DNA of 64,000 bases from Gracilaria vermiculophylla (taxonomy: Eukaryota > Rhodophyta > Florideophyceae > Gracilariales > Gracilariaceae), in assembly GCA_019155205.2 (NCBI GenBank), contig JAHNZQ020003146.1:178668-242667 (forward strand). The letters run 5' to 3'. Below the pieces are notes generated by a model, which did no database searches, was not told where the DNA came from, and worked only from the letters and a program-made list of their open reading frames with translations. Each line of letters starts with the position of its first letter. Positions within the stretch are counted from its first letter, which is position 1. Positions 50,427 to 58,091 of this stretch are shown here, one piece after another. Both the position numbers and the translations under genes were made by a program.

Positions 50427-51706
50427 CAGACTGTTTCAAAAACATACGATATGCTGTGAAATCTCAAAAAAACTACGAAATGTATACTGTATGCCTAAAA
50501 AAAATAGGTTTCAGAATAATTAAAGTCAAAAAACCGTTTCAAAAACATATAATCATCAATAACAAATCTTTACTACGCTACGCTCAAATGTTTATTTTGT
50601 ATACTTTTTGCTGTATAACGCTAATGCAGTGTTTCGGCATCGAATTGATGTACATTTCTACAGTTGAAACTGTTATAGATTTCCAGCAATTATTAATACA
50701 GTTTTCGAGCTCAAAACCTGTCTGAAATTGCCTTCCATGCGCATAAACCATCCTCGCCAGCAGTCCCCAAAACGTTTTCGATTGGGTTCAAATCTGGTGA
50801 GCGCGCCGGCCACTCTAAAACAGAAACTTCAAACTCCTGTAGCCAATTTTTGATGAAAAATGAAGTGTGTACAGGCTCATTATCCCATTTAAAAAAGTAA
50901 ATTTTCTTCATGGAAACATAAACAAAAAGGTAGCCAATGATTGTATAAAAATTCTTGGTATTTTTCTGCATTCATATTTGTTTCAATAAATGCAATTTCT
51001 GTCAGATGTTTTTCGGAAATGCCCACCCAGACCATTACAGAGCTTCCATCTGAATGCCTGGTATAGAACTCATGATGTTCCTCACCAAGATCGTGCCAAT
51101 AAAGTTTTAGCAATCTGGTCCGTCCAAATTGAACTTTTTGTCATCAGTAAAAATAACATTTTCCCATTCTTTCTTCCAATAGGCTTTTCTAGCACACCAG
51201 TCAACGCTCTTGTGCTTGTGATGATCTTGGAGAAAAAAAAGTTTTTTTCCTTTTTAATACTTAAATAAATTTGTCTTGTTTATTTGCCTACGTATAGTTG
51301 ATTTTAAAACGTTGAGATTGAGATTTATTCCAATTGTTTTGCACGGCACTCTTCCTTTGCACGGCTCCCTTTTAATTACTGTTTTATCTGCTTGGCTGAG
51401 GTTCTTACGACGTCCCGGAGATCGTTTTAATCCATAGAGAGTCGGATGTTTTAGAAAAGAAGCTATTGTGACCCTAGAACGCTTCAATTTTTTAGCGATA
51501 GCACTGTTAGAATGTTTTTCGGCGTTCAAATTTACGATTTGAAGCTGTTCTTGTTTGGAAAGTGGCGGACCTCGAGCCATTTTTACTTGAAAGGAGAGGG
51601 TGTACATATCTTTTTGAAACGATTCTACCTAGACTATGTGCAAAATCTAGCCTAGAGTACAGTTTTGGCGCACTTTTCAGGGGTAATATGTTTTTGAAAC
51701 GCACTG
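50427..51706 (-). mobile_element. Tc1/mariner element, copy 2, TA-flanked
   Basis: Ends are inverted: cagactgtttcaaaaacata at 50427 and the complement of cagtgcgtttcaaaaacata ending at 51706, each next to TA (50425-50426 and 51707-51708). Length 1280 bp. Inner repeats of gtttcaaaaacat occur at about 50527 and 51610. Copy 1 at 41337 is homologous throughout. Further gtttttgaaac motifs just outside the right end (51723-51745) suggest nested or tandem terminal sequence. Confidence 0.85.
50711..51607 (-). pseudogene. Tc1/mariner transposase of copy 2, frameshifted
   Basis: 51607-51254 (about 110 codons) starts KMARGPPLSKQEQLQI and has a helix-turn-helix type N-terminus (AIAKKLKRSRVTIASFLK and LKRSPGRRKNLS). 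Frames 51113-50889 and 50971-50711 then give GSSVMVWVGISEKHLTEIAF and VHTSFFIKNWLQEFEVSVLEW with ARSPDLNPIENVLG, the second and third acidic positions of the DD34E core. The first Asp strand and parts between are lost in shifts. Inactive. Confidence 0.83.
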
Positions 51707-51874: not shown

Positions 51875-53942
51875 TTAGCGATCAACCTCCTAAAAATATG
51901 TCAATGAAGATCAGAACAGAATACGGTCAAAGTCAGAGACAATTTCCTTGTGAAAAGAAATGAGGTTTAGAGACACAAGATTCACTTACACCCTATATGT
52001 AGAATCCCAAAAATATTCATGACAAAAACGAAATTAAGCACATCGAGCAAGTTAGACACACACGCTTTCATTCTTAGAGTTAAGGGATACTTGATGCAAC
52101 CAAACTTACGCTGTATGTTTGAATGTTTGCCAATATGACCAGGATGGTGGAAACAAAGGAAACATAGCAAGTGTTAGTAAGAATATCTTGCAGCTCGCTT
52201 GATATGCTTCCGATGCGGTGAAAAAAACTTACAATACTATATCCTGTGTTCCAATGATTGTCACGGCATCAGCGACCATGTGGCCCTTCCCCATCATGTT
52301 TAGCGCTGACAAATGTGCAAACCCTGGTGCCCGGATACCACACCTGTACGGGCGATTTGTACCATTCGACACTAGGTAGACTCCAAACTCTCCCTTTGGT
52401 GCCTCCACGGCCGTGTATGTGTCTCCAGCAGGTACAGAAAATCCTTCAGAGTAGAGCTTAAAGTGATGAATGAGCGCCTCCATAGATTGCTTCATGTTCT
52501 CTCGTGAAGGAGGCGAGATCTTACGGTCATCTACCTTAACTTCCCCTTCAGGCATTTGGTTAAGGCATTGCACAATGATATCCAGAGACTGTCTCATTTC
52601 TTCCACCCGGATGAGATAACGGTCGTAGCAGTCACCGTTGATGCCAACTGGAATCTTGAAATTAACAAATTCATAGGCATCGTACGGTTGAGCCTTTCGC
52701 AAATCCCACGATACGCCAGATCCCCGAAGCATCGGTCCTGAGAATCCCCAGTCAAGGGCCTGCGCAGCAGTCACGACACCGATGTCAACAAGTCTTTGCT
52801 TCCAGATACGATTTCCAGTAAGCATCTCCTCAATTTCATCGATTCGAGAGACGAAAGACTTGCAGAAACCATAAATGTCGTCCATGAGACCGAGTGGAAT
52901 GTCTTGAGCAACGCCGCCTGGCCTAACGTAGGCAGAATGTAAACGAGCCCCGGAGACGCGTTCGTAGAATTCCATGAGCTTCTCTCGTTCTTCAAAGGCC
53001 CATAGAAACGGAGTTAAAGCACCCACATCCATTCCCTGCACGTCAAATAAAGTCGGGGGGCAATGTCAGACGAGGCGGTTTAAGCATGTGTTGTTTTGAG
53101 GTTATACATCGATTCAGGGCATACGTACATGACATCCGACAGCAAGAAGATGGTTAAGAATGCGAGTAATCTCCGCGAAAAGCGTTCGGATATACTTGGC
53201 GCGTAACGGAACTTCAATCTTGAGCAGTTTTTCAACAGCCAGAGAGTAGCATTGCTCCTGAGCCATCATGGACACATAGTCCAAACGATCGAAATACGGA
53301 AGCGCTTGAAGGTAGGTTTTATACTCAATGAGTTTTTCCGTACCGCGATGTAGAAGACCGACGTGTGGGTCTAGTTTGACGGCGACTTCGCCATCAAGTT
53401 CCAGCACGAGGCGGAGAACTCCATGAGCAGCTGTAATCGGAAGGTGAGAAGTCTGTCAGCCTGATGAATGCTTGGCGAATAGGAGGATTGCTCGGTGCGC
53501 ATGGAATAATTGCAGAAGTTCGCAACTTACCCTTCAGTAATAACGACATTGACGCATCGCAAGTGGCCGTACGGGAATGATTGAAATTATGCTTCTAGTT
53601 AGCAGCTGGCAGACCACTGAGAACGCACCATGAGAAGAGCCCATGCAGCTTTGCCGACGAGGGGTTACGTACCGGATGCTGCGGACCAAAATTAAGAGTG
53701 AAGTTTCGGATATCGAGTTGTTTCTCTCGATCAGCTCGCATGCGGGAAAGTTCGTGAGGCTCCAGTTGATCAAGATGAACATCACCAGCGACCGCGTTCA
53801 CCGCAGAGTCGATGTAATGAGGGTCCAGCTTCTGCGGGGAGCCTACAGACGCGAGCTGCCCGCCTCGCGTAGCCAGCGCGCGCACATTAGAGCAGCTTGC
53901 ATGAGAGACGGAAGCAAGACGAGAGGAAAAAGCTCGCAGCAT
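51875..53942 (-). CDS. NDUFS2: NADH:ubiquinone oxidoreductase 49-kDa subunit (complex I), with micro-exons
   Basis: The quinone-site subunit of mitochondrial complex I. The proposed exons are 53942-53673, 53531 (1 nt), 53430-53129, 53035-52233, 52110 (1 nt), 51992-51990 (3 nt) and 51889-51875, giving 464 residues, the normal length. Residues 1-28 form an Arg/Ser/Ala mitochondrial presequence. Conserved stretches include [22 protein letters not shown] with the quinone-site His, [15 protein letters not shown] with the quinone-site Tyr, and [19 protein letters not shown]. Without the micro-exons the frame would be lost after QHP and would end at GTQDIVL. With them it reads QHP-AAHGV and QDIVFGEVDR exactly. 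All introns are GT-AG, 93-141 nt, with GTAAGT or GTACGT donors. An alternative acceptor would replace the first micro-exon with a 7-residue insertion. Divergent from the parvulin gene. Confidence 0.93.
51990..51992 (-). other. NDUFS2: 3-nt micro-exon of NDUFS2 (Gly codon in DIVFGEVDR)
   Basis: Context on the minus strand is ...acatatag|GGT|gtaagtgaat. It supplies Gly in phase 0 and is followed by a 100-nt intron ending tttttag and the 15-nt terminal exon (51889-51875) encoding Glu-Val-Asp-Arg-stop. Confidence 0.75.
52110..52110 (-). other. NDUFS2: 1-nt micro-exon of NDUFS2 (third base of the Phe codon in DIVFGEVDR)
   Basis: Context on the minus strand is ...acatacag|C|gtaagtttgg. The previous exon ends TT (donor gtaagt at 52232); TT+C gives Phe. 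Introns of 122 and 117 nt flank it. Confidence 0.75.
53531..53531 (-). other. NDUFS2: 1-nt micro-exon of NDUFS2 (codon for the first Ala of AAHGV)
   Basis: On the minus strand the context is ...ctgaag|G|gtaagttg: an AG acceptor, one G, and a GTAAGT donor. Exon 1 ends in phase 0 after QHP (donor gtacgt at 53672) and the next long exon begins with CT (acceptor ttacag at 53431), so one base is needed; G+CT gives Ala and restores QHPAAHGV. Flanking introns would be 141 and 100 nt. Confidence 0.75.
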
Positions 53943-56660: not shown

Positions 56661-58091
56661 ATGGTCGCTACCAAGTCAATTGTATGCTTCGCCGTGTTCA
56701 TTGCCGGTGCTTGCGCTGGTCTCACTGGTCGTAACACCCGTCAGTTCCTTCCCTCAGACATCACGGGTGAATACTCTTTGTTTGTTAAGCAGGGAACATG
56801 TGCTCCCACCGTCGAGTTCAAGTCTTTCAAGACTATGGCCCCTGGTGTTTACGCTGTACCTCACGGTGAAATTGTGGAGGATGGTTCTGTATGTTCCAAT
56901 GAAGGCGAATTAACCATTGTCGCTAAAGAGACTATCATTGAAAGTGGTAATGAGGAAGTTCTCAACATGAAGCCAGTCGATACTATTGTCAAGGAGCTCA
57001 ACAAGCAAGGTGCTACTTTCATGTTGGGTTACGAAAAGGATGGTCGTAAATGCGGGGAAGTCACCACTCCGGCTAAGTCTGTTGCTGTTTTCATTGACGA
57101 AGAGAAAAAGATTCTAATTCCGGGCCTTATCACTTTGTTCCCGGGAGCGAAGTACATGATTGTCTATGATAGTTCTTCCCCGACTCCCTGTACGTACTTC
57201 GCCCAGCATGATGACCGGGTAATTGGTGTCGCTGCCGCTCCTCCCAGTCCGATGCCAACTCCGACTCCGGTTCTGGAAGTTGTTGCAACTCCGACCCCTG
57301 TCGCCGAAGAACCTTCTTCTTCCATGGAAGCTGAAGTCGTTGAGGAAGGTGTCGGTTCCGGAGCTGTTGCCGGAGCTGCCGCTGGTGGAGCCGCTGCCGC
57401 TGGTGCCGCTGCCGCGGGTGCCGCCACTACCGGCTCCTCTGACTCTGATTCTGATGGCATGGATGGCATGGATGGCATGGATGGCATGGCCGGGATGGAT
57501 GATTTCGCCACGCAATCGTTCGAACCGGAGCCAACCTCTGAAGAAGATGATGGTTCCGTTTGCTTCCCGGCTGATGCTACTGTTGAACTTGAAGATGGAA
57601 CGGTAAAGACCATGGACGTCCTTGAACTTGGTGACCGTGTGAAGGTTGCCGCCGATGAGTTCTCCCCGGTCTTCATGTTCTCCCACAAAATGGGTGGCGT
57701 TTCGTACACCTTTGTTCGCCTTACTGCTGCCTCTGGCGAGTCTGTGACCCTGACCAAGGGACACTATCTATACGTCAACGGCGTGATGGCCGCTGCCGAA
57801 TCCGTTCGTGTCGGTGACTCCATTGAGACTGAATCTGGTTTGGTTTCCGTTTCTTCCGTTGACTCCGTTGTTTCCCGTGGCCTCTACAACCCTCAGACTG
57901 TCAACGGCAACATCATTGTCAATGGCATTAAGGCTTCGACCTATACCACAGCCGTTGAGACTAAGACCGCCCATTCTCTTCTTCTGCCGCTTCGTGCTGC
58001 GTTCCGTTTCGCTGGTATGACCACCTCCATGTTCGATAATGGAGCTGACAGGATTGCCAACATGCTCCCTACCGGTGCGCTGATATTGTAA
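56661..58091 (+). CDS. Secreted protein with C-terminal Hedgehog-type Hint (autoprocessing) domain
   Basis: A 476-residue protein. Residues 1-20 are a signal peptide (VCFAVFIAGACAG). Residues 21-190 form a novel N-terminal ectodomain with paired Cys and no family I recognise. Residues 191-285 are a Pro/Thr- then Ala/Gly-rich linker with a short DGM repeat (GMDGMDGMDGMAGMDD). From about residue 300 a Hint domain begins: CFPADATVELEDGTVKTMDV with the nucleophilic Cys, FSPVFMFSHK, the TxxH block VTLTKGHYLYVNG, and GLYNPQTVNGNIIVNG with ASTYT. These are the Hog/Hint landmarks, so self-cleavage after the linker and release or lipid-type attachment of the ectodomain are likely, though untested. Hint-domain proteins without a Hedgehog signalling domain are known from red algae and protists. 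Single exon; convergent with THG1. Confidence 0.88.
   Translation: MVATKSIVCFAVFIAGACAGLTGRNTRQFLPSDITGEYSLFVKQGTCAPTVEFKSFKTMAPGVYAVPHGEIVEDGSVCSNEGELTIVAKETIIESGNEEVLNMKPVDTIVKELNKQGATFMLGYEKDGRKCGEVTTPAKSVAVFIDEEKKILIPGLITLFPGAKYMIVYDSSSPTPCTYFAQHDDRVIGVAAAPPSPMPTPTPVLEVVATPTPVAEEPSSSMEAEVVEEGVGSGAVAGAAAGGAAAAGAAAAGAATTGSSDSDSDGMDGMDGMDGMAGMDDFATQSFEPEPTSEEDDGSVCFPADATVELEDGTVKTMDVLELGDRVKVAADEFSPVFMFSHKMGGVSYTFVRLTAASGESVTLTKGHYLYVNGVMAAAESVRVGDSIETESGLVSVSSVDSVVSRGLYNPQTVNGNIIVNGIKASTYTTAVETKTAHSLLLPLRAAFRFAGMTTSMFDNGADRIANMLPTGALIL

Follow-up and report, generated by a model that had tools for sequence, protein, structure and literature searches.

Nuclear exons of a single nucleotide have been described in the plant genes APC11 (PMC4674806) and VPS55 (PMC8831610) and in the Fusarium gene CYP621A (PMC12940212). 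According to the accessible text of these reports, the 1-nt exon of Arabidopsis APC11 sits between AG and GT, is required for the reading frame and was missed by annotation; it is a single such exon in a land plant gene, and was proven by cDNA and mutants (PMC4674806). The 1-nt exon of plant VPS55 is described there as conserved, mis-annotated and associated with strong GTRAGT donors, and the same source presents a rice transcript in which two micro-exons, of 5 and 12 nt, lie side by side (PMC8831610). For CYP621A, the available text relates that the exon was deduced from the frame and a conserved motif, with an over-long intron serving as a hint, and that it was subsequently seen in SRA reads (PMC12940212).

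Here, we describe a gene for NDUFS2, the 49-kDa subunit of complex I, whose coding sequence apparently includes two 1-nt exons and one 3-nt exon. It differs from APC11 in the number of its micro-exons, in belonging to a red alga and in being known from DNA alone. It also differs from CYP621A, a fungal gene with only one 1-nt exon in the part of the report available (PMC12940212), and from the plant cases, where the adjacent rice pair is larger and the accessible portion of the source holds no red algal case (PMC8831610). Among the titles and opening lines of abstracts listed by our literature searches, with supplements and most subscription papers outside their scope, there was no red algal micro-exon and no gene with two 1-nt exons. 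As far as these searches extend, three features are new: the chain of 1- and 3-nt exons, the occurrence of more than one 1-nt exon within a gene, and the red algal lineage. Stwintrons, in which one long intervening stretch is removed stepwise, retain no nucleotides, and neither does recursive splicing. The exon of placozoan cox1 is mitochondrial and hence not spliceosomal. The available reports nonetheless offer likenesses, namely the single-base exon of that mitochondrial cox1 (PMC5436844) and the stepwise removal of a long intervening stretch in recursive splicing (PMC6110457). The NDUFS2 locus is set apart from recursive splicing and stwintrons, including zero-length recursive sites, in that 1, 1 and 3 nt (G, C and GGT) must stay for the frame to hold.

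The gene occupies positions 53942-51875, on the minus strand, of the window, by which we mean the whole 64,000-nt stretch analyzed (C8:178668-242667, in an assembly of 44.8 Mb and 27 contigs). Its joined coding sequence of 1395 nt gives a product of 464 aa ending in DIVFGEVDR and a stop, and the match to PF00346 (E 1.4e-120, domain positions 1-266 of 271) bears out the identity proposed in the initial annotation. The final residues are obtained only when the micro-exons are included. The domain match ends at 266 of 271 in this gene and extends to 271 in four organelle-type copies elsewhere in the assembly. Among the nearest protein matches listed (at least 120) are the red algae Chondrus crispus, Porphyridium, "Madagas" (read as Madagascaria) and Purpureofilum.

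In the gene model, the coding part of exon 1 (53673-53942, 270 nt from the ATG) ends in CAG CAT CCG and is followed by intron 1 (53532-53672, 141 nt, gtacgt..tgaag), with a branch-like CTAAC whose A lies at -68 (53599). Micro-exon 1 would be a single G (53531) between tgaag and gtaagt, restoring PQHP-AAHGVL. Intron 2 (53431-53530, 100 nt, gtaagt..ttacag), an exon of 302 nt (53129-53430) and intron 3 (53036-53128, 93 nt, gtacgt..gtgcag) lead to the main exon (52233-53035, 803 nt), which ends in GATATAGTATT before gtaagt. Beyond intron 4 (52111-52232, 122 nt, gtaagt..atacag; CTAAC with its A at -64, 52174) lies putative micro-exon 2, a single C (52110, acag/C/gtaagt) that completes the Phe codon TTC. 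Intron 5 (51993-52109, 117 nt, gtaagt..atatag) carries a branch-like CTAAC with its A at -60 (52052) and others at -88 and -42, and is followed by putative micro-exon 3, the Gly codon GGT (51990-51992, atag/GGT/gtaagt). Intron 6 (51890-51989, 100 nt, gtaagt..tttttag) precedes the last coding segment (51875-51889), GAGGTTGATCGCTAA, encoding Glu-Val-Asp-Arg-stop. The three GTAAGT donors of the 3' end start at 52232, 52109 and 51989. All of the 3' motifs were found where the initial annotation had put them, although its 15-nt exon is better described as the coding part of a terminal exon, since that exon must extend into the 3' UTR; the micro-exons proper are thus of 1, 1 and 3 nt.

All six introns are GT-AG introns of 93 to 141 nt, and the intervening stretches would measure 242 and 343 nt if the micro-exons were ignored. 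Each of the three micro-exons is flanked by AG and GT and by introns of ordinary length, and is needed for the conserved protein frame where a simpler GT-AG path is absent. When GT-AG chains at the 3' end were enumerated, starting at the GTA codon and with introns of at least 20 nt, neither one intron nor two sufficed and three gave two solutions, which supports the claim that the micro-exons are required for the conserved C-terminus. Phe-Gly-Glu-Val-Asp-Arg-stop is readable only as ...GTATT + C + GGT + GAGGTTGATCGCTAA; one of the two chains has GTAAGT at all donors, and the other uses ag/C/gtgtgt. We also considered a single 4-nt exon or a boundary shift at this end and rejected both, since of the five YGGN words found between the flanking exons none has an AG before it or a GT after it. 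At the 5' site, exactly one GT-AG solution exists when as many as three introns are allowed; it contains the single G at 53531, which we take to be the "first micro-exon" of the initial annotation (tgaag/G/gtaagt). Allowing GC-AG donors adds only a zero-length step to that same solution.

We rate the probability at roughly 0.9 that the window gene is a functional nuclear NDUFS2 of a florideophyte red alga, whose mRNA would include G, C and GGT through U2-type GT-AG splicing. As a control, intervening stretches were shuffled with six bases held fixed at either end, dinucleotides kept and introns of at least 40 nt, and were searched for chains yielding FGE[VI][DEN]R and a stop (3' end) or PAAHGV (5' site). 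With GTA[AC]GT donors, such chains arose in 2 of 50,000 shuffles at the 3' end, in keeping with the earlier contention that three abutting GTAAGT donors are hard to explain by chance, and in 14 of 50,000 at the 5' site. The looser donor GT[AG][AC]G raised these counts to 17 and 121 of 50,000, respectively, and any GT to 25 and 120 of 2,000. GTAAGT itself is rare, with 58 occurrences in 238,377 non-N bases on both strands, compared with an average of 93.1 for 89 permuted hexamers, and 4 of the 58 are sense-strand donors used in NDUFS2. Pairwise comparison of introns 1 to 6 gave no alignment above the best of that pair's 100 shuffles, and a recent duplication as the source of introns 4 to 6 was rejected accordingly.

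The ending encoded with the 3' micro-exons is conserved. Of 382 relatives on genome contigs, the best 80 were kept, every one from a record with a bacterial title; 65 of these could be parsed (15 could not), and all 65 end in FGE[IV]DR followed by a stop. Among 54 sequences from solved structures, 49 can be aligned as far as residue 464. No NDUFS2 relatives were found on viral contigs.

The annotated NDUFS2 protein of Chondrus crispus (P0007) appears frame-broken at both micro-exon sites, as if tiny exons had been missed. In this protein, LWASAS replaces FGPQHP right before AAHGVL, and RRLIAKN follows DIVF. The stretch EFHPQLWASAS fits a DNA that, one base on, encodes the expected 10 residues directly before AAHGVL, and RRLIAKN fits a DNA that reads EVDR and a stop two bases on. 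Each of these frame-compatible sites is unique in P0007, and among 200,000 random peptides 0 and 25, respectively, were compatible. Removal of the 1-nt G from the window gene gives ..WSAASAAHGVL, where Chondrus has ..WASASAAHGVL. Because the frame appears broken at the two matching places, the micro-exon architecture is probably common to Chondrus and the window alga, the evidence being an annotated protein with frame breaks of the right size and place rather than the exons themselves.

Other protein records bear on the same 3' site. P0002 (DIVL and a stop), P0004 and P0023 (DIVLYV, which fits TT/GTAYGT) apparently continue into intron sequence from the matching TT/GT donor, and P0003 has a complete FGEVDR and may be a relative's transcript. 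P0002 and P0004 are continuous through PQHPAAHG, with no break at the 5' site; either some relatives lack the 5' micro-exon, or these two records derive from sequence that had already been spliced. Five further proteins close to red algal NDUFS2 (P0005, P0006, P0008, P0009, and P0012) diverge at other points near the 3' end, which suggests introns at those points. As a side observation from these five, the 3' end of NDUFS2 looks like an intron hot spot in the group.

Among the alternatives, the one that survives best would restore the 5' frame with a single noncanonical intron, gtacgt...ttaca/G, leaving only the 3' micro-exons as real. A boundary shifted in this way would supply an identical G, because the base preceding CTGCTC is itself a G, so that one GT..CA intron would also give the right frame, and the 5' frame break in Chondrus would fit such an intron equally well. 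We consider this very unlikely, since the intron would have to be of GT-CA type and 241 nt long, compared with 93 to 141 nt in this gene under the micro-exon reading and 71 nt in a neighboring acyl-CoA oxidase gene, and would contain a perfect AG/G/GTAAGT. At the 3' end, moreover, no boundary shift can provide CGGT.

A reading in which the 3' micro-exons are chance motifs is more improbable still. The protein would then end at DIVL through retention of intron 4, or in the frameshifted tail of a skipping product. Retention indeed produces a clean stop after DIVL, as the initial annotation had noted in stating that the unspliced main exon loses the ending, and P0002 and P0004 stop similarly, though they resemble unspliced gene calls. 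Skipping of C, or of both 3' micro-exons, changes the frame and adds a foreign tail after DIV; skipping of GGT alone costs one glycine. Against such endings stand the conserved FGE[IV]DR, the shuffle odds of 2 in 50,000, and the retention of EVDR-stop codons in the last exon, both here and, by the frame test, in Chondrus.

Least credible is a decaying window copy with the expressed NDUFS2 elsewhere, for although PF00346 finds four further places in the assembly, all four are AT-rich (22 to 27% GC, against 45%), three have in-frame TGA, the nearest named matches of the fourth, on C6 ("Theca..." 83%, Jakoba bahamiensis 80%, among at least 120 listed), are not red algae, contig C17 carries a red algal COX1 without a PF00346 match, and the frame of the window gene is open elsewhere, its protein being 95% identical to that of Chondrus across 80% of its length. 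The PF00346 search of the assembly thus found five places, the window gene and four organelle-type copies, and no second nuclear-looking NDUFS2; an expressed second copy is what the initial annotation had named as fatal to its reading.

The four AT-rich stretches apparently come from other organisms in the sample. NAD7 on C6 has no internal TGA, the organelle-type genes on C2, C16, and C25 use TGA for Trp, and both C2 and C16 carry a split COX1. With several such foreign-looking mitochondrial NAD7 and COX1 genes, the assembly looks like a mixed sample. COX1 on C17, in which TGA is Trp, matches a cluster named Gelidium sclerophyllum (Gelidiales) at 93% identity, and we infer that C8 and C17 belong to one alga. 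The COX1 region of C17 would be either a mitochondrial genome wrongly joined into the contig or a large insertion in nuclear DNA. At approximately 3.22 Mb of the 5.16 Mb of this contig, the red algal COX1 is accompanied by a COX2-like frame, recognized by eye with TGA as Trp.

Under the micro-exon model, each of the six short introns would be recognized by intron definition and removed successively. U1 and the 3' splice-site machinery could not occupy a 1-nt exon together, so that only after removal of one flanking intron would the single nucleotide become the edge of a normal exon. The expected intermediates are TT-C/gtaagt and then TTC-GGT/gtaagt, with splicing onward from there, and the GTAAGT after all three micro-exons, together with the CTAAC before them, may offset the missing exon sequence. 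The predicted joins are CAGCATCCG-G-CTGCTC and GTATT-C-GGT-GAGG; a main mRNA ending at GTATTGTAA, or with GTATT joined straight to GAGG, would contradict the model. Comparable proposals exist, since intron definition with stepwise removal has been argued for the Arabidopsis 1-nt exon in the available text (PMC4674806), and in plants the two introns around a micro-exon probably leave one after the other, often the downstream one first, according to the part of the survey accessible (PMC8831610). The inclusion of micro-exons in Caenorhabditis elegans requires PRP-40, which is proposed, in the accessible portion of that report, to act through intron definition (PMC8378409).

Candidates for the machinery are present. 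The assembly encodes a WW+FF protein (PRP40/TCERG1-like) and a U1 candidate of 66.1 bits, slightly below the Rfam cut-off of 69.5, with the canonical 5' end ATACTTACCTG; Rfam gave no match at gathering scores on the window. According to the accessible text of a survey, the U1-2 and U4-6 RNAs occur in Galdieria and in five further genomes of red algae, except that U1 was most likely lost from Cyanidioschyzon merolae (PMC5880011). The introns preceding micro-exons contain CTAAC with the A at -68, -64, and -60, to which intron 5 adds TTAAC at -88 and TTAAT at -42, and those preceding normal exons contain CTGAC/TTGAC/CTGAT (intron 2 at -26; intron 3 at -31 and -8; intron 6 at -44, -38, -22, and -12; the acyl-CoA oxidase intron at -21), in a sample too small for the contrast between the two groups to be weighed.

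We also put forward, as an unlikely idea, that an ordered, obligatory splicing relay has kept the 1-nt/3-nt chain in this essential gene of an intron-poor genome since the split of the Gelidium and Chondrus lineages. In such a relay, the donor of each intron would meet its exon only once the preceding intron had been removed. If this were true, the chain could be a built-in checkpoint or brake on complex I production, because most splicing slips lose the conserved C-terminus. With introns of approximately 100 nt, NDUFS2 would in any case be a compact natural substrate for studying intron order and how the spliceosome handles sites that cannot be co-occupied. Standard gene annotation tends to overlook 1-nt exons, and a concrete error is indicated here: both ends of the annotated NDUFS2 of Chondrus appear to be wrong for this reason. 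Further red algal genes with apparent frameshifts may therefore hide micro-exons as well.

The suggestion of the initial annotation that the locus reflects a splicing system generally tolerant of micro-exons, to be pursued by scanning the genome, is not supported. A 1-nt-exon pattern (CTAAC, 40 to 70 nt, YAG, N, GTAAGT) gave 8 matches in 44.8 Mb, compared with 21 for the reversed pattern and 8 for a permuted donor (14 reversed), and one of the 8 is the C exon of NDUFS2; the pattern covers one signature only, and the G exon, with its AAG acceptor, escapes it. Similarly, YAG-n-GTAAGT in 238 kb never exceeded the highest of 89 permuted donors for n = 0 to 15 (n = 1, 3 versus a mean of 2.33; n = 11, 4 versus a mean of 2.34), the counts being raw, with no adjustment for the lower frequency of GTAAGT relative to the permuted donors. 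Since neither scan shows an excess over its controls, a special genome-wide splicing system is unsupported. The pattern search also returned a 1-nt-exon-like unit, ..ttctattcag/T/gtaagt, at C3:2223284-2223347 on the minus strand, which may be due to chance.

The genome is intron-poor. The 13 chaperonin matches fall into 11 gene places, two of the genes being split, and nine of these places hold a near-whole domain in one open frame. For kinases, 131 matches were obtained, and in each of the best 20 a single frame spans at least 249 of the 263 positions, although some of these places may be organellar or from other organisms in the sample. Among the 30 ORFs put to Pfam, out of 296 of at least 110 aa, only the acyl-CoA oxidase gene shows a clear split, which is due to a single intron of ordinary type, 71 nt long, with no micro-exon. 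Finally, two neighbors of NDUFS2 were recognized by eye. Broken frames just past its stop (50711-51607, minus strand) resemble a Tc1/mariner-type transposase, and a secreted-looking protein of 476 aa (56661-58091, plus strand) has a C-terminal CFPADATVELEDGTVKTM.. that resembles a Hint (hedgehog/intein) domain.
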